From Candidatus Hydrogenedentes bacterium CG07_land_8_20_14_0_80_42_17 (GTDB lineage: Bacteria > UBA8481), in NCBI GenBank assembly GCA_002780065.1, contig PEWQ01000153.1, forward strand, positions 1-9,525: DNA of 9,525 nt. The letters are read 5' to 3'. This document shows, in pieces, positions 1 through 9,382 of this stretch. The notes under the pieces were generated by a model that worked only from the letters and a program-made list of their open reading frames with translations, searched no databases and was not told the DNA's origin. How positions within the stretch are numbered: the first letter of the stretch is position 1; each line of letters opens with the position of its first letter. Made by a program: the position numbers and the translations under genes.

Positions 1-3000
1 AAACAAGCTGATCCAGCTTTTCCTGTTTTTCTTTAAGGCTCTTCTTTAATTCTTCATTCTCTTTTTTTACGTCATCAAGCCGGTTCGTTGCGTCATTAAT
101 CTCTCTTTGTGAAGCAATAAGTTTTTCCTCGAATAAACGCATCTTCTCTAAATATGCTTTAGAAGCCGCTTCCTGAGCTTCAGTCGCAACCAGGCTCTTC
201 TCTATTTCATGCCTGCCTCGTTCATTTTCGAGTTCTTGAGTTAAAGCATCAAGCCTGGACTTAATCTCTGCTTCACTCACTTTATATTCTCCAAACTCCT
301 TTTCGACTTTCGATAGCTGAGTCTCAAGCACGGACTTTTCTTTGCGAAGCATGTCAATCATAGCTTCACTTTCTTTTCTGTATGATTCAAGCCGGACAGA
401 AAGTTCTTCATTATTTTCTGATGCTTTCGAAAGTACTAATGCTTCCTTTTCTCTGAACCGGTCTGCTTCTTCTTTCCGAGCCTGCTCAGCTTCTTTCCGA
501 GCCTGCTCAGCTTCTTTCCAAGCCTTTTCAGCTTCCTGCCGAGCTTGCTCAGCTTCCTTTCGAGCCTTTTCAGCGCGGTTAGCTCGTTCGTTCTCCTGAA
601 TCAAACTTTCTTCCAATTGTTTCGATAATTCTTCTTTCGAAGAAATCTCGCGTCTAAACTTTTCGATTGAACCTTCGAGATTATTTTTTTCTTCTACTAA
701 AACTTCAGCTTTTGCTCGGTCATTCTCAAACTCTTGCAGTCGAGCAGTAAGTTCAGATATCTTCTGCTCAAGTTGAGTTCTCTTCAATGTCTCTTCGTCG
801 CGCAACTTCAATTCATTCTTCAGTCTCTGAATCTCATCGGCACTTCTCTGTGCACTCTCATCTTTTACTGCTGATGCAAGCTTCGTCTCTTCGAGAGCGT
901 TCTGCAGTTCTTGCTTCTCTTTCTGAGTCTTCCCGAATCTCTTCGCCATGTCTTCCATTCTTGTATCGTATTGCCCGATTCTACCTCTGCTTTGTTCTAT
1001 CTCTCTGCGATGCTTTTCAGCTTCATTTGCTGAACTCGCTTGATCTCTTCTCAGTAATTCCGTATCTTCAACAAGCTGTTCTACTCTTCGATTCGATATT
1101 TCAAGTTTTGTTCTTGCATCTTCCAGCTCTCTTTGAAGTTTTTCTATCTCTCTGCGATGCTTTTCAGCTTCATTTGCTGAACTCGTTTGATCTCTTCTCA
1201 GTAATTCCGTCTCTTCAACAAGCTGTTCGACTCTTCGATTCGATATTTCAAGTTTTGTTCTTGCATCTTTCAACTCTCTTTGAAGTTTTTTCATCTCATC
1301 AAGCGCGCCTTTGGTATTCGAGCTTCCTGAATCTTCGCTCGGGCCCGATGAAAGCAACTCCTGCCTCAAATGTTCTATCTCTTCGCGCATCTCCATCAAT
1401 AATTCAATATCGCCGGCAGGAATAAACTTTTCTTTTTCTTTCATCCAACGGCTGACCTCAGTCTTCAATATCTCGATGGATTTAAGTTCGAACTGCTTCT
1501 CTTTACGGAGTAAATCTCGGTCCTTCCGCAACTTCAAAACGTTCTCTTCTAATGCCTTCTTCTCTTTCTCGATCTCGTAGGTTCCTCGCGTTGTGTCTTC
1601 ACTTAACTGCTTGATCTGCATCCTCGCCAGATCCAATTCTGCGGCAATTTTATTGAATCGCTCTACAGAATCTTTCTTCTCTGATTCCGCATTTCTAAGC
1701 GACTTTTCAAGTTCTTCTATTCGACTGTTGTCTCTCTTCTCCGATTCCAAACGGAATTCAGAAGAATGAGAAATTTCATTCTTTACTTCGATAAGCTTCT
1801 GCTCCGATTCTGTCAGTTCACGCCGAGCTGTTTCGCAATTCGTCTCCAGTGATGAGAGCTCTTTTATTAATGAATCACGTCTTTCTTCAAGCTCTGCAGT
1901 TTCGTTTCGGAGTTTCTCGAGCGCTTCAGATTTTTCGTTTAATTCGTTGCTTATAATTTGCTCTTTCTCTTTCAAATCTTTGAGCTTTTCTTCTTCGCTT
2001 TTTAATTTTTCAGAATAAGTTGTCTCACTTATTTTCTTCTCTTCTTCCGCCTTCGTGATCTCTTCTCGAATTTGTGAAAGTTCCGCTGCCCCGGCAGAAA
2101 GCTCTTCTTCTATTAGAAGTTTCCGAGCTTTCAGCTCTTCATGCTCTTGATTCATCGATTCGATGCTGGCGCGAGTCTTCTCCAATTCCTGATTCAATTT
2201 AGATAATTCCTCGCTTTTTCCGCGCAATGCATCTCTTTCAGAACTGAAAGTTTTCTTCTCTTCTTGCAGCCGCCCGCATTCTTCCTTCAAAGCTTCCATC
2301 TGAAATCGAGTTGCTTCGACTTCTCCTCTCAATCCGGCTTTTTCAAGATTCATTCGAGCCCTAAGCGCATCGAGATCAGATGCTACTCCGTTCTTTTCCG
2401 ATTCAACCTTTTCCTTTTCTGTAAGCAATGACTGAAGTTCGGCTCTGCGAGCATTTATCTCCGCTCGAATCTCTTCTAAGTAATTTTTCTCTTCATCGGT
2501 TCTCTGATCAACAACAGCTTTTTTGCCGGACTCGATCTCATCCAGCTCATTCTTAATTCGTATTCTATCGTTCTCGAGGTTGGAACGTTCTTCTTCCATC
2601 GTAGTAAGCTCTTGCTTAATTCTTTCGTATTGAGTATTAACTTCGGCCAGTTCTTTTTTTGAATCTTCCAGATTTGTTTTCAATTCCGAAAGCTCGTCTC
2701 GCACAATAGCTCGGCTCTTTTCCAATTCATTCAGTTCAATTCCCGCAGAGTCGCGGCTCGATTCCAAAGATGACATTTCACTTCGAATAGCATTGCAGCT
2801 CTCTTCAAGTGAAGTCGTCTCTGCTTTCGCTTGAGAAAGTTTCTCTTCCTTATCTGATATCTCATTTGACAGAAGCCGGCTCCGCTCTTCCAACAAATTA
2901 ATTTCGTTCCTGACTCGATTCAAATCTTCTTCAGCAGTTTTAAAACTTTCTCTCTTCTCTTCAGCACTATTCAATTCATTGTCAAGCCGAGCTAATTCCT

Positions 3001-4363
3001 CGGTCTTTGTCAAAAGTTCTTTTTCAAGATTCGACGCTTCTTCATTCAAACGCTCACGTTCTTCATTCCTCAATTCAATCTCTCTGCGTAATGATTCAAG
3101 CCCCTGATTTAGTTCGGATAAAGTTTCTCTCTTCTTCGTCTCTTCTTCTGTCAAAGAAGCATCAAGCAATGATCTTCTTAACTCGATCTCCTTCAGCTCA
3201 TTCTCTATTTGCAGTTTATTCTTCTGCAGCAGCTCTATTTCATGAGCTAATCCCTCAAGTTCACGTTTGCGTTCCTCGGCAATTCCGCGCCCTTCACCTA
3301 TCTTCGAATTCAGTTCCTGTTCTTCTGCATGAAGAGATTCGATGATTGATCTCTTCTCTTCTATCTCAGTCTGCAAATCATCAGAATATCGGTTTTCTTC
3401 CTCTGCAAGTCGTAATGCCTCTTCGGCTTTCAACAGCAATCCTTCCATCTCGAATTTTTTCATCTCGAGTTCTGAAATCTCGTTCTGCATAAAGTTGCGC
3501 CGCTCTTCTAATTTCAATAACTCAGCGGAATTATCAATCAGCTCGTCTTCCCTCTTCTTTAGCTCGGCGATGCGTTCAAGAAGTTCGCTCGCTTCCTTTT
3601 CGAGCGACATTTTTCGAGTATTTATTTCCTGCTCAGAAGTATCAAGTGTCTCCTGAATCGGTTCTTCAATTGGATTATCCTGTTTCACTTCGATAGGCTC
3701 TTCAATAGACTGAATATCGTCTTTCGATTTTGATTTTGTATAAGAGCAAAGCGGACACTTGTCAGAGTCAATAAGCATGTTCGCTCCGCATTGAGGACAT
3801 TTTTCAAACTCGGGTTGATGGAAAAGAACTGTCTGTCGGTCGCTGAGAAGCATTCCGCAGATATAACACCTGTCGGCGCCAATCGCATTTTTTGTTTTGC
3901 AATGCGGGCAGATCATATGAGTCTCGTTCTCTTCTTTCTTCTCATCTTTTTCGTCATTCTCGTCCTGAGAAGCTATTCTGCCGCCCGACAGAGCCTTAAT
4001 CAGTCTCTGTTTATGCAAAGCCTCGGCTGAATGTATTGCCTGTTCGAGAGTCGAAAAAAGTGTGAACTCATGCGACGCTCCATGAACGCCGATCTTTTCA
4101 TCAATGAAACGGTCATTCCCCTCCACAACAAGAATTATTTGACCTTCGCGCCGCCTTGTTTTTCGCGATGCGCGAATTAAAATTTCTCCGCCGGACGGTA
4201 AAAGTTTTTCGAGTTCGAGTATGTCCACAACGATAAAAAAATCGTCCCGCGCAAGTATCCTGTCGATATTCACTGTCAATACAGGAATATCGATAGCATC
4301 CATCGAGCCTGATATTTTTATAACAGGAATCGAGCCGTTCTGTTCAGTCGTTATGGTCAGCAT
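1..4363 (-). CDS. Giant STAS / double zinc-ribbon / coiled-coil protein (partial, C-terminus off the left edge)
   Basis: One uninterrupted minus-strand frame gives 1,454 codons with no stop before the left edge. Residues 1-115 resemble a STAS (anti-sigma-factor-antagonist) fold: a beta-strand with SGSMDA, then VVDILELEKLLPSGG, where S57 sits at the usual phospho-serine position, then a second strand ILVVEG. Residues 116-150 are a charged linker. Two zinc ribbons follow, each CxxC-x10-CxxC: C152/C155/C166/C169 and C189/C192/C203/C206. From about residue 240 to the edge the protein is rich in E, K, R, L, S and N with heptad periodicity, i.e. a very long coiled coil. The clearest breaks are an IPAGD segment near residue 982 and a Gly/Ser/Pro hinge near 1004-1019. 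No signal peptide, membrane segment or ATPase motif is visible. The start is ATG 4363-4361, overlapping the ridA stop as TAATG, with AGGT about 12 bases upstream. STAS domains sense or relay signals by partner binding, so a scaffold or filament role is possible, but the function is unknown. Confidence is high that it is a gene and moderate for the STAS call. Confidence 0.9.
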   Translation of the reverse strand, partial: MLTITTEQNGSIPVIKISGSMDAIDIPVLTVNIDRILARDDFFIVVDILELEKLLPSGGEILIRASRKTRRREGQIILVVEGNDRFIDEKIGVHGASHEFTLFSTLEQAIHSAEALHKQRLIKALSGGRIASQDENDEKDEKKEENETHMICPHCKTKNAIGADRCYICGMLLSDRQTVLFHQPEFEKCPQCGANMLIDSDKCPLCSYTKSKSKDDIQSIEEPIEVKQDNPIEEPIQETLDTSEQEINTRKMSLEKEASELLERIAELKKREDELIDNSAELLKLEERRNFMQNEISELEMKKFEMEGLLLKAEEALRLAEEENRYSDDLQTEIEEKRSIIESLHAEEQELNSKIGEGRGIAEERKRELEGLAHEIELLQKNKLQIENELKEIELRRSLLDASLTEEETKKRETLSELNQGLESLRREIELRNEERERLNEEASNLEKELLTKTEELARLDNELNSAEEKRESFKTAEEDLNRVRNEINLLEERSRLLSNEISDKEEKLSQAKAETTSLEESCNAIRSEMSSLESSRDSAGIELNELEKSRAIVRDELSELKTNLEDSKKELAEVNTQYERIKQELTTMEEERSNLENDRIRIKNELDEIESGKKAVVDQRTDEEKNYLEEIRAEINARRAELQSLLTEKEKVESEKNGVASDLDALRARMNLEKAGLRGEVEATRFQMEALKEECGRLQEEKKTFSSERDALRGKSEELSKLNQELEKTRASIESMNQEHEELKARKLLIEEELSAGAAELSQIREEITKAEEEKKISETTYSEKLKSEEEKLKDLKEKEQIISNELNEKSEALEKLRNETAELEERRDSLIKELSSLETNCETARRELTESEQKLIEVKNEISHSSEFRLESEKRDNSRIEELEKSLRNAESEKKDSVERFNKIAAELDLARMQIKQLSEDTTRGTYEIEKEKKALEENVLKLRKDRDLLRKEKQFELKSIEILKTEVSRWMKEKEKFIPAGDIELLMEMREEIEHLRQELLSSGPSEDSGSSNTKGALDEMKKLQRELKDARTKLEISNRRVEQLVEETELLRRDQTSSANEAEKHRREIEKLQRELEDARTKLEISNRRVEQLVEDTELLRRDQASSANEAEKHRREIEQSRGRIGQYDTRMEDMAKRFGKTQKEKQELQNALEETKLASAVKDESAQRSADEIQRLKNELKLRDEETLKRTQLEQKISELTARLQEFENDRAKAEVLVEEKNNLEGSIEKFRREISSKEELSKQLEESLIQENERANRAEKARKEAEQARQEAEKAWKEAEQARKEAEQARKEEADRFREKEALVLSKASENNEELSVRLESYRKESEAMIDMLRKEKSVLETQLSKVEKEFGEYKVSEAEIKSRLDALTQELENERGRHEIEKSLVATEAQEAASKAYLEKMRLFEEKLIASQREINDATNRLDDVKKENEELKKSLKEKQEKLDQLV
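471..575 (-). repeat. Five tandem 21-bp heptad repeats in the coiled-coil gene
   Basis: Five consecutive 21-base units start at 471, 492, 513, 534 and 555. The first two are identical (TCTTTCCGAGCCTGCTCAGC plus T) and the other three are diverged. Each encodes one Ala/Glu/Lys-rich heptad of the type A-R-K-E-A-E-Q, covering about residues 1264-1298. The period equals one coiled-coil heptad, so gain or loss of units would lengthen or shorten the helix without breaking frame or register. Confidence 0.9.
996..1289 (-). repeat. 147-bp tandem duplication inside the coiled-coil gene
   Basis: Copies at 996-1142 and 1143-1289 are directly adjacent and differ at five of 147 positions, with no indels. 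The unit is 49 codons, exactly seven heptads, so duplication preserves both reading frame and coiled-coil register. The copies encode about residues 1026-1074 and 1075-1123. Three of the differences change an amino acid (K/E, E/D, T/A) and two are silent. The low divergence points to a recent duplication or to gene conversion. Confidence 0.93.
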
Positions 4364-4782
4364 TATTTTTTATTACCTGCAAAAGGCAAGGTCGGCGCAA
4401 TCGCGGATATTTCAATTAGAGCGTCCTTAGGCAAACCGGACACTTCCACCGTAACGCGTGCGGGAGGATTATCCGTATCAACTCGGCGCGCATAGCATTC
4501 ATTCACAATCCCGAAATCCGAGAGTGACTTCAGATAAATGTTAACGATTACCGCGTTCTTCAGAGACGTTCCCGATTGAGTCAGAACAGCGGAAAGATTA
4601 TCCAGCGCCTTTTCCGTCTGCTCAAGAATGCCTCCATCAACAATTCTGCCTGAATCTTTATCTATCGGAATTTGCCCTGAAGTAAATGCGAAGCCGTTCA
4701 TCATTACCGCCTGCGAATAAGGGCCTATTACAGTCGGAGCATCTCCGCTCTTAACTATTCTGCGAACACCAGTCTTCATCAT
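4363..4782 (-). CDS. ridA: RidA-family enamine/imine deaminase
   Basis: This 139-residue protein belongs to the RidA (YjgF/YER057c/UK114) family, small trimeric cytosolic enzymes that hydrolyse reactive 2-aminoacrylate and related enamines or imines released by PLP enzymes. Visible family motifs are GPYSQA at 20-25, TSGQIP at 34-39, the PPAR-VTVEV segment with the substrate-carboxylate-binding arginine R109, and LPKDALIEISAIA with E124 (equivalent to R105 and E120 of E. coli RidA). It is about ten residues longer than typical members, from slight extensions at both ends. Two adjacent ATGs (4782 and 4779) could start it; neither has a clear Shine-Dalgarno sequence. Its TAA stop shares a base with the ATG of the giant coiled-coil gene, so the two are probably co-transcribed and coupled. 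The family call is firm; the exact physiological substrate cannot be read from sequence. Confidence 0.95.
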   Translation of the reverse strand: MMKTGVRRIVKSGDAPTVIGPYSQAVMMNGFAFTSGQIPIDKDSGRIVDGGILEQTEKALDNLSAVLTQSGTSLKNAVIVNIYLKSLSDFGIVNECYARRVDTDNPPARVTVEVSGLPKDALIEISAIAPTLPFAGNKK

Positions 4783-4922
4783 ACATAAGAGATTAAATCA
4801 AATTTCAATCCACCGCAATAGTTTATAGTTTATGGGGTCAGGCTTGAACTTTTTTACTTTTTCATTTTTTTATTTCAAAAATTTGTGGTATTTGTAACTC
4901 TAATCAGATAGCATTTCTATTT
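4783..4922. other. Divergent intergenic region, mostly occupied by a repeat element
   Basis: These 140 bases separate ridA (leftward) from the radical SAM gene (rightward). Only 4783-4833 is outside the repeat element. On the minus strand that segment holds a weak promoter candidate: TTGCGG (4818-4813) and TTTAAT (4797-4792) with a 15-base spacer. Its predicted transcript would start within a few bases of the ridA ATG, which would fit the missing Shine-Dalgarno sequence there. The plus-strand promoter would have to lie in the element or left of it; I see no strong sigma-70 match, only weak boxes such as TTGTAA (4892) with TTCTAT (4915). The promoter suggestions are low-confidence inference. 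Confidence 0.4.
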
Positions 4923-4960
4923 ATGTTTACCAAAAAGGAAAAAAGTTCAAGCCTGACCCC
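4834..4960 (+). mobile_element. MITE-like element, copy 1
   Basis: A 127-bp AT-rich element starts GGGGTCAGGCTTGAACTTTT and ends with its inverted complement (AAAAGTTCAAGCCTGACCCC). The terminal inverted repeats match perfectly for 22 bases and for 28 of 29 overall. A second copy lies 4,403 bp downstream in the same orientation, with one internal substitution (C4912 versus T9315) and one at the outer base (G4834 versus A9237). No transposase is encoded, so any movement would need an enzyme in trans. Similar GGGGTCAGG-type termini are, from memory, associated with REP-like or IS200/IS605-type (Y1 transposase) elements; this link is unverified. The right end overlaps the first 13 codons of the radical SAM gene. 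No clear target duplication is seen, though both copies are preceded by TTTAT and followed by AAA. Confidence 0.75.
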
Positions 4961-6401
4961 AAAAATACTATTAATAAATCCGCCTTATACATTGGAAGAA
5001 AGATATGGGAAGAACCTTAAGCATTTCGGAGGAAACGCAGAGCCGTTAGGATTGGCGTATATTGCGGCGGCTGCCTTACAAGACGGCCACGAAATCGAAA
5101 TAATTGATGCGCCTGTTCAAAATTTTACATCTGAAATGATTCAGAAGAAAATAATAAATGAAAAGATCGAGTTAGTCGGTTTTACAATGCTGACACCGAT
5201 GTACAATAATGTTAAAAGAATTGTCGGTGATATTAAACAAAATTGTCCTGAAACGATTATTGTGATCGGAGGAGCACATGCTTCAGCTCTTCCTGAAGAA
5301 ACTATCAGCGATATAAAAAATGATATTGTCTGTATTGGCGAAGGCGAAAATACTTTTCGAGAAATCGCAAAAGCGATAGAAGAAAAAAAAGATTTAACTC
5401 AAATTAAAGGAATTTGTTTCAGACAAAATAATCAAATAATCAGAACAGCTCCTCGCCCTTTTGAAAAAAGCCTTGATGTCTTTCCGCCGCCTGCCAGGCA
5501 TTTACTTCCGATGGATAAATATTTTTTGACGGCGACACGAGTTAAAAAGAGCGGCTATTGCGGAACGGTCATCGTCGCTAGAGGTTGTCCGTTCGGATGC
5601 TCATATTGTTCTCATCCTTTCGGAAGAACTTTCAGAGCTCATTCGCCGGAAAGAATTGTAAATGAAATAAATGAGTTGATAGAAAAATACGGTGCGGTGC
5701 AAATAAATCTTGAGGCGGACACTCTCACAATAAATAAAGATTTTATTATGTCCTTATGCGACAAGATGATCGAAAATAATATTCATAAAAAGATTAAATG
5801 GACCTGTGAAAGCAGGATAGACACTCTTTCCGAAGAGATGCTGGTAAAGATGAAAGAAGCCGGTTGCTGGCAGATTTCTATCGGAGTTGAAAGTGGAGTG
5901 GACAGATTATTAAAAATTATAAACAAAGGTGAAACTAAAAAAGAGATCGAAGAGAAGGTTAAGATAATTCATAAAGTAGGAATTTCAATACGCGCATTTT
6001 TTATGTTGGGATTGCCTTCCGAAACAAGAGAAGATTCTTTTGAAACAATTAAATTCGCCCAGAAATTAAATCCCGATTGGGCTCAATTCACAATCACGAT
6101 TCCATATCCCGGAACGCCGTTATTCGATATTCTCAAAAAAAGCGAAGAAATAAATTCTTTCGATTGGAAGAATTACAAAACTTGGGGCGGCTGGACTGAA
6201 GATAATATTCCATACATTACTAAGGGAAGAACTTTGGAAGAATTAAAGAGCATGCAAAAATATGCTTTGAAAAAATTCTACCTTAGGCCGTCAATGTTTA
6301 TTAAATTTTTCAAACGAATCGATTCATTTGCAACTCTAAAAAAATACATAATCGGTTTACTTATTTTGTTAAAGGTTAATAAGTCTCAAACTTCTGAATG
6401 A
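4923..6401 (+). CDS. B12-binding-type radical SAM protein
   Basis: A 492-residue protein with the two-domain layout of cobalamin-binding radical SAM enzymes. The N-terminal Rossmann-like B12-binding domain (about 14-165) has ILLINPP, EPLGLAYIAAA, the GFT strand, IVIGGAHASALPEE and GEGE, but no DxHxxG motif, so cobalamin would probably bind without a protein histidine ligand, as in BchE-like enzymes. The radical SAM domain carries CPFGCSYC, the CxxxCxxC that ligates the [4Fe-4S] cluster (C222, C226, C229), followed by EADTLT, SIGVESG and FMLGLPSET motifs. The C-terminus is basic with a short hydrophobic stretch (YIIGLLILL) that could touch the membrane. Members methylate unactivated carbons or rearrange complex substrates; the substrate here is unknown. 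The only plausible start, ATG 4923, lies in the repeat element and has no Shine-Dalgarno sequence, so codons 1-13 are element-derived. It overlaps the next gene as ATGA. It looks more AT-rich than its neighbours, hinting at a separate origin. Confidence 0.92.
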   Translation: MFTKKEKSSSLTPKILLINPPYTLEERYGKNLKHFGGNAEPLGLAYIAAAALQDGHEIEIIDAPVQNFTSEMIQKKIINEKIELVGFTMLTPMYNNVKRIVGDIKQNCPETIIVIGGAHASALPEETISDIKNDIVCIGEGENTFREIAKAIEEKKDLTQIKGICFRQNNQIIRTAPRPFEKSLDVFPPPARHLLPMDKYFLTATRVKKSGYCGTVIVARGCPFGCSYCSHPFGRTFRAHSPERIVNEINELIEKYGAVQINLEADTLTINKDFIMSLCDKMIENNIHKKIKWTCESRIDTLSEEMLVKMKEAGCWQISIGVESGVDRLLKIINKGETKKEIEEKVKIIHKVGISIRAFFMLGLPSETREDSFETIKFAQKLNPDWAQFTITIPYPGTPLFDILKKSEEINSFDWKNYKTWGGWTEDNIPYITKGRTLEELKSMQKYALKKFYLRPSMFIKFFKRIDSFATLKKYIIGLLILLKVNKSQTSE

Positions 6402-6745
6402 GAATCGCAGTTGTCGATAAAGAAGAGTTTCAGCGTCGAATTCTAATTCTTTTATTAGAGTCAATTGGCGAAGAAAAGGTCGAGTCTTACGCTTCACTTG
6501 AAGAGATAAGCAATCAGTTTCATAATGAAGATATTGTGATAATTGATCTCTATAATTTTGAAAAATTTCAAATTGTTCGCGATTCCAAGCCGTTTGTGAT
6601 AGTTTCTGCTCAGGAACGCCATGACAAACTGCTTGCCGACTCTCTCTCAAATGGTGCCGACTCGTTTATTCTGAAACCATTTACCAAAGAGGGACTTGAA
6701 CAAGCAATAAAAGATGCCAAACTTATGAAGGAGACAACGATATGA
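6398..6745 (+). CDS. Stand-alone, atypical response-regulator receiver domain protein
   Basis: A 115-residue CheY-like protein without an output domain. Key receiver positions are visible: D7 at the end of the first strand (VVDKEE), phospho-acceptor D50 (VIIDLYN), S70 in the switch Ser/Thr position (VIVSA), and K93 followed by cis-Pro (LKPF). Two departures stand out. The second acidic Mg-binding residue after D7 is Lys, with glutamates next. The stretch from D50 to S70 is only 20 residues against about 30 in CheY, so the usual MPxMDG loop and much of helix 3 are missing. It may phosphorylate weakly or act as a pseudo-receiver binding partner. Its start overlaps the radical SAM stop (ATGA) and its stop overlaps the yicC start (ATGA), so it is translated as part of this operon. 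No histidine kinase gene is present in the window. Confidence 0.85.
   Translation: MRIAVVDKEEFQRRILILLLESIGEEKVESYASLEEISNQFHNEDIVIIDLYNFEKFQIVRDSKPFVIVSAQERHDKLLADSLSNGADSFILKPFTKEGLEQAIKDAKLMKETTI
6728..6733 (+). promoter_or_regulatory. Shine-Dalgarno sequence for yicC
   Basis: AAGGAG lies eight bases before the yicC ATG and inside the end of the receiver gene. It fixes the yicC start at 6742 and shows that this organism uses canonical ribosome binding sites. That makes their absence before the element-borne radical SAM start and before ridA more noticeable. Confidence 0.85.
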
Positions 6746-8248: not shown

Positions 8249-9238
8249 ATGTCGACGGATAGAATATGGAAAAAAATCATTATTGAGAATCTTGGTTATT
8301 CTATTGGCGAGCGGCTATTGATAATCTCGGACAAAGAGATCGAAATCCCTATTCCTGCCGAACTTCCAGTTTCCGCTGAAATATGCGTTGCTCCGTCTTC
8401 TGGCGGTCATGGAATGGAGCCGGCTCTGGAAGTTTGGGAAGCCGCATTCGGCGCTGCAAGCGCGGCGCTGGAATTTAATGGCGTATTCGAAAAAATAATT
8501 TCAAAGAAATTAGATAGTATCGGCGAATCCTTTCTCGATAACTGGATAAGTAAAGCCGCTCCTCTGGCGCCAAATGCAGTAATTGCGATCACACATTTTT
8601 CAACTTCTCATACTCTCTTCAGAAAATTGCTGAATAGAGCCGGAACAAGATATGCGTCTATTCCATTATTCGAACCGTATCTGCTTCGAGAAAACGGGCC
8701 GATAGATATTGATTATCTCCAGTTAGAAGATAGATGCCGCAAACTCTACAATAAAATTAATGGCGCAAAGAAGATTAAAATTACAGCGCCTAACGGAACT
8801 GACTTAGAACTTGAAGTCGAAGGAAGACAATTTCATATCGATGACGGAAATCTTACAAAAAAAGGTTCGTTCGGAAATTTGCCTGCCGGCGAAATTTACA
8901 TTGCTCCGCTGGAAGGACGTTCGAATGGAACTTTGGTAATCGAAGATGGATCTGAAATTCATGTTGAAGACGGAGCTGTGGTAGAAATTTTTGGCGAGTC
9001 GAAACTGAGTAGAATCTTTTCAGAGCATTCGGACTGGCTAAAGATTGCTGAGCTTGGGATCGGAATGAATGACCGCGCCAATCGAACTGATAACGTTCTG
9101 GAGGCCGAAAAGATACTTAGCACGGTTCACATCGCGTTCGGAGACAATTCAGGTTTCGGAGGAACTCAGCGGATTCCATATCATGTTGACCATGTCGTTT
9201 TTAATCCAACGCTTATTGCCGACAGTATTTATTTATAG
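8249..9238 (+). CDS. M29-like metallo-aminopeptidase (aminopeptidase T family, COG2309-type)
   Basis: A 329-residue protein whose C-terminal half carries the metal-ligand pattern of M29 aminopeptidases: GEIYIAPLEG (E215), AELGIGMN (E268), STVHIAFGDN (H294) and HVDHVV (H312, D314). This matches in order the two Glu, two His and one Asp of the dinuclear metal site in thermophilic AmpS/AmpT enzymes. Family members remove N-terminal residues from peptides in the cytosol; the specificity here is unknown. It is shorter than the classical ~410-residue enzymes, lacking part of the N-terminal region, but resembles shorter COG2309 proteins. The ATG follows the gmk TAA with no gap, and AGGATGG upstream may serve as the ribosome binding site. 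The last base of its TAG stop is in the second repeat element, and the protein ends soon after the HVDHVV motif (FNPTLIADSIYL), so the insertion may have trimmed the tail. Confidence 0.85.
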   Translation: MSTDRIWKKIIIENLGYSIGERLLIISDKEIEIPIPAELPVSAEICVAPSSGGHGMEPALEVWEAAFGAASAALEFNGVFEKIISKKLDSIGESFLDNWISKAAPLAPNAVIAITHFSTSHTLFRKLLNRAGTRYASIPLFEPYLLRENGPIDIDYLQLEDRCRKLYNKINGAKKIKITAPNGTDLELEVEGRQFHIDDGNLTKKGSFGNLPAGEIYIAPLEGRSNGTLVIEDGSEIHVEDGAVVEIFGESKLSRIFSEHSDWLKIAELGIGMNDRANRTDNVLEAEKILSTVHIAFGDNSGFGGTQRIPYHVDHVVFNPTLIADSIYL

Positions 9239-9363
9239 GGTCAGGCTTGAACTTTTTTACTTTTTCATTTTTTTATTTCAAAAATTTGTGGTATTTGTAA
9301 CTCTAATCAGATAGTATTTCTATTTATGTTTACCAAAAAGGAAAAAAGTTCAAGCCTGACCCC
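9238..9363 (+). mobile_element. MITE-like element, copy 2
   Basis: This second copy matches copy 1 base for base except for T at 9315 (C in copy 1); the outermost G of copy 1 is A here (9237). It has the same long terminal inverted repeats and the same orientation relative to the downstream gene. Its left edge overlaps the TAG stop of the aminopeptidase gene. It carries the same ATG (9326-9328), which reads in frame and without a stop into the carbon-nitrogen hydrolase gene starting at 9383. It encodes no transposase. Its potential hairpin could also act on transcript ends between the two genes, but no classical terminator with a U-tract is evident. Confidence 0.75.
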
Positions 9364-9382
9364 AAATACCAAATACAAATAT

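Follow-up and report, generated by a model that had tools for sequence, protein, structure and literature searches.

In Myxococcus xanthus, the proteins FrzS and AglZ begin with a small signalling-type domain that has no working phosphosite, followed by a coiled coil (PMC1974792 and PMC2680258). The pseudo-receiver of FrzS, which lacks the phosphosite and sits on a coiled coil of 258 residues, directs polar localisation (PMC1974792), and the receiver-like domain of AglZ is joined to a coil reported to form filaments (PMC2680258). FilP and crescentin, which are intermediate-filament-like, have a segmented coiled-coil rod, and the survey in PMC2680258 took rod proteins without known domains and with more than 80 residues of segmented coiled coil. 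Among proteins with a STAS fold, SpoIIAA and RsbV are small and carry a phosphorylated serine (PMC4517449). Tandem CxxC-x10-CxxC ribbons are found in the DZR proteins (PF12773).

Here we describe a gene from a little-known bacterial lineage whose predicted product joins a STAS domain, two zinc ribbons and a giant coiled coil. Its plan is that of FrzS and AglZ, but the N-terminal domain is STAS where theirs is receiver-like, zinc ribbons are described only here, and the coil has about 1,215 residues. Judged by plan, this resemblance is one of convergence with unrelated domains, and not a family relation. The best structural and sequence matches of the head are SpoIIAA, RsbV, RsfB and RsbS, which share the STAS fold; unlike SpoIIAA and RsbV, however, the protein has proline in place of the phosphorylated serine, and its domain caps a giant coil. 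The segmented rod is shared with FilP and crescentin, a resemblance of plan, whereas the STAS and ribbon head sets it apart from the domain-free rods of the survey. The tandem ribbons are those of the DZR proteins, but the score is just below the cut-off of that family and the linker is unusually conserved between orthologs. The preliminary description of this DNA knew of no described protein with this combination at this size, and in the accessible open-access literature we likewise found no description of STAS, zinc ribbon and coiled coil combined. The domains and the plan are known; the combination is new as far as that literature shows.

Gene structure and domain organization

The window, by which we mean the whole stretch of DNA analysed (9,525 nt), is one entire contig of a source genome of 2.39 Mb (207 contigs, 87% completeness). 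The features of the coil gene and its upstream neighbor are given below.

4363..4782, minus strand: RidA-family (Rid/YjgF) gene directly upstream of the coil gene (PF01042, 119 bits; TIGR00004, 131 bits)
2..4363, minus strand: giant coil gene (STAS, double zinc ribbon, coiled coil), at least 1,454 aa, 3' end off the contig edge
4019..4363, minus strand: STAS domain, residues 1-115 (Pfam profile, structural matches, paralog alignment)
3857..3910, minus strand: ribbon 1, C152/C155/C166/C169 (CxxC-x10-CxxC motif)
3812..3856, minus strand: inter-ribbon linker GMLLSDRQTVLFHxP (GMLLSDRQTVLFH linker), residues 170-184, the longest run identical between the two orthologs
3746..3799, minus strand: ribbon 2, C189/C192/C203/C206 (CxxC-x10-CxxC motif)
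2..3646, minus strand: predicted coiled-coil rod, residues about 240-1454 (periodicity of 3.5 and heptad coverage)
992..1285, minus strand: two 147-bp tandem copies inside the coil, 49 aa or exactly seven heptads each, 96% identical
469..574, minus strand: five 21-bp tandem copies inside the coil, one heptad (7 aa) each

The open reading frame runs from the ATG at 4363 to base 2, with 1,454 codons and no stop, and is open at the left end of the contig. The single frame of at least 1,454 codons, the STAS-like N-terminus, the two identically spaced ribbons and the more than 1,200 residues of coiled coil, all proposed in the preliminary description, were recovered by the analyses reported here. 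When the 300 bases at the left end were searched against the source genome, no other contig proved to overlap them, and searches with the coil sequence found no additional coil pieces there. Neither of the two genomes that carry the gene includes its C-terminal end, as the contig of the relative likewise stops inside it. A domain in this missing part could alter the scaffold reading given below. No Rfam match was found within the window.

The STAS head and its acceptor position

By profile and by predicted fold, residues 1-115 are a STAS domain. Pfam PF01740 was matched by residues 4-109 over the entire domain (model positions 2-106 of 106) with 26.0 bits for the head alone and 23.1 bits for the full protein (cut-off 22.6), and the STAS domain of the ortholog was also above the cut-off (29.5 bits). 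The AlphaFold2 model of the head, built on two sequences, had a mean pLDDT of 73, and of about 83 over residues 1-110; the ortholog head, modelled with its own sequence first, gave a poor model (pLDDT 50), which forms no part of the evidence given here. In Foldseek, the head model matched RsfB, SpoIIAA, RsbS and RsbV (E 1.7e-7), and alignment to RsfB and SpoIIAA by VIA-align gave a Z of 15.7 and an rmsd of 2.1 over 110 residues. The predicted fold is that of a STAS domain and not an unrelated one.

To the same domain a candidate phospho-serine, S57, had been assigned, which the alignments do not support. In an alignment with the STAS proteins of both genomes, the column of the acceptor serine is occupied by P56 in both orthologs, and the residue before it is Leu or Thr where the acceptor loop has Asp. 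The same register was obtained with phmmer for RsfB and 4hyl. S57 is the residue after the acceptor column and is Asp in the relative, so it is not conserved and was rejected as a phosphosite. DSSG or NST stands at the acceptor site of the STAS paralogs in these genomes, and the Ser or Thr in a D-S-x-G loop that marks SpoIIAA/RsbV-type proteins is replaced by P56 in the coil protein. Proline in the acceptor column of both proteins, together with Asp in place of S57 in the relative, makes it probable that the head is a module for docking independent of phosphorylation. Other residues may still be phosphorylated.

Zinc ribbons and coiled-coil rod

The two CxxC-x10-CxxC motifs lie at C152-C169 and C189-C206. 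All eight cysteines are invariant across the two orthologs and fit the generic zinc-ribbon motif; binding of zinc or another metal by the two ribbons is inferred from this motif. The DZR model (PF12773) gave 26.3 bits for the head and 22.1 bits for the whole protein, under its cut-off of 27.3.

The hydrophobic periodicity of the coil, calculated in windows, peaked at 3.50 residues with a power of 6.7 (maximum 2.5 in 200 shuffles). Heptad registers covered 99% of residues 240-1454, while the mean of 20 shuffled sequences was 69% and their maximum 82%. The resulting rod of about 1,215 residues is interrupted by a Gly/Pro/Ser-rich stretch near residues 982-1020, and it exceeds the length of more than 80 residues used for segmented coiled coils in PMC2680258; the absence of known domains, the other property of the proteins in that survey, does not apply to it. 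The 21-bp and 147-bp repeats are exact heptad multiples, so the rod appears to have lengthened in evolution by duplication of whole heptads. In the visible part of the protein there is no stretch resembling a membrane helix, the highest 19-residue Kyte-Doolittle mean being 1.14. The usual threshold for such a helix is about 1.6.

Orthologs and distribution

One ortholog was detected, in the only other genome of the phylum examined. The two heads are 46% identical over 208 residues, and the STAS domain, the eight cysteines, the inter-ribbon linker and the start of the coil (at least 300 residues) are conserved. When a profile of the two heads was searched against 386 relatives, the whole head was matched in the two orthologs only; the other matches were confined to the STAS part or to a short piece of the ribbons, as judged from the table of matches for all but two, which were read. 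These two, weak ribbon matches with long frames from other phyla, were different proteins without the STAS-ribbon-coil layout. The complete architecture was not found outside the phylum in 384 sampled genomes.

The ribbon segment was also scanned across about 85,000 species with two degenerate patterns that had to be matched exactly, so that divergent members could be missed, and the sole full match came from Candidatus Hydrogenedentota bacterium J006 (RFFU01000106.1). This contig matches the contig of the relative that bears the ortholog. The same scan returned 13 further loci with weaker, mostly partial ribbon-like matches; an earlier scan with poorer patterns had found nothing, and there was no match among viral contigs and plasmids.

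Gene neighborhood and other features of the window

The TAA of ridA overlaps the ATG of the coil gene (TAATG), so the two genes are probably carried on one transcript. In the relative the gene order is RidA, a 146-aa protein and the coil gene; the linkage to RidA has been kept although the heads have diverged to the identity given above, but it suggests no particular function. The 146-aa protein of the relative (1763-2203 of its contig) looks cNMP-binding-like when read by eye, and proteins similar to it are encoded on other contigs of the source genome (best identity 33%). No kinase or phosphatase gene adjoins the coil gene.

Two copies of a 135-nt element bounded by terminal inverted repeats (GGGGTCAGGCTTGAAC...) lie in the window, at 4829-4963 and 9232-9366, and are 99% identical. 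At a threshold of E 1e-5, 49 stretches of the source genome match the element in whole or in its terminal parts, some of them counted on both strands, and no stretch of the relative's genome does; the element resembles a small mobile or REP-type repeat. The element provides the ORFs at 4923 and 9326 with an extra, probably spurious MFTKKEKSSSLTP start. At 6398-6745 the window encodes a single-domain response regulator of 115 aa (PF00072, 32.7 bits) without output domain, flanked by a B12-binding radical SAM gene and yicC. The product of 8249-9238 resembles M29 peptidases weakly (30.2 bits against a cut-off of 27), over residues 160-298 only, and has no NCBIfam match.

Possible roles of the protein

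We read the protein as a coiled-coil scaffold or filament of the cytoplasm, headed by a pseudo-STAS domain and zinc ribbons, and give this reading a probability of about one half. The STAS domain, being without a phosphorylation site, would probably serve as a constitutive module for protein docking or oligomerisation, and the two ribbons with their almost invariant linker may make up a second binding head that is compact and holds metal. The rod would dimerise via its heptads and reach a length of about 180 nm (1,215 residues at 0.15 nm per helical residue). Such a protein could act as filament or scaffold while its head recruits partners. A filament or scaffold with a regulatory, metal-binding head had been proposed before: of this, the scaffold or filament whose head binds partners remains the reading we prefer, and regulation by phosphorylation of S57 is not supported, given the proline at the acceptor position of both orthologs. 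Neither RidA nor, in the relative, the neighboring cNMP-binding-like protein suggests a cytoskeletal process, which counts against the scaffold.

The nearest structures are anti-sigma-factor antagonists, which would suit a partner-switching protein. An RsbW/SpoIIAB-like kinase or a stressosome-like complex would then be bound by the STAS head, with the coil as a tether to a cellular site and control by binding or by another phosphosite. Both genomes also contain other STAS proteins with DSSG, one of them in the source genome fused, as seen by eye, to a HATPase-like region. However, the coil protein itself has lost the acceptor serine and the preceding Asp in both orthologs, its S57 is not kept in the relative, and neither a kinase nor a phosphatase gene stands beside it, which makes partner switching unlikely. 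The C-terminus, unseen in both genomes, leaves room for a membrane anchor, and long coils often act as spacers; the protein would then be a membrane- or envelope-linked spacer, a long arm with the head at its tip binding a partner in the cytoplasm. Nothing like a membrane helix occurs in the visible part, however, and we regard this role as unlikely.

A coil that handles nucleic acids in the manner of SMC or Rad50, with the ribbons contacting nucleic acid or protein, is very improbable. Zinc ribbons often contact nucleic acids, and regions of the coil match SMC and Rad50 models, with 81 bits for SMC_prok_B. These matches are limited to the coil, though, and the curated cut-off is 567 bits, on which scores identity with SMC or Rad50 was rejected; moreover, the STAS domain sits where SMC and Rad50 proteins have the N-terminal half with Walker A.

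The scaffold reading can be extended, tentatively and with more doubt than belief, to a lineage-restricted bacterial cytoskeletal scaffold, in which the phosphorylation-dead STAS domain and the double ribbon with its invariant linker would recruit partners for a giant coiled-coil filament, as a STAS counterpart of the Myxococcus pseudo-receiver coils. The almost invariant linker between the ribbons offers a precise target when looking for such partners. If this is true, an uncultured phylum would have arrived at the plan of a coiled-coil rod with a pseudo-signalling head by way of another signalling domain, and STAS domains could serve scaffolds as phosphorylation-independent docking heads.
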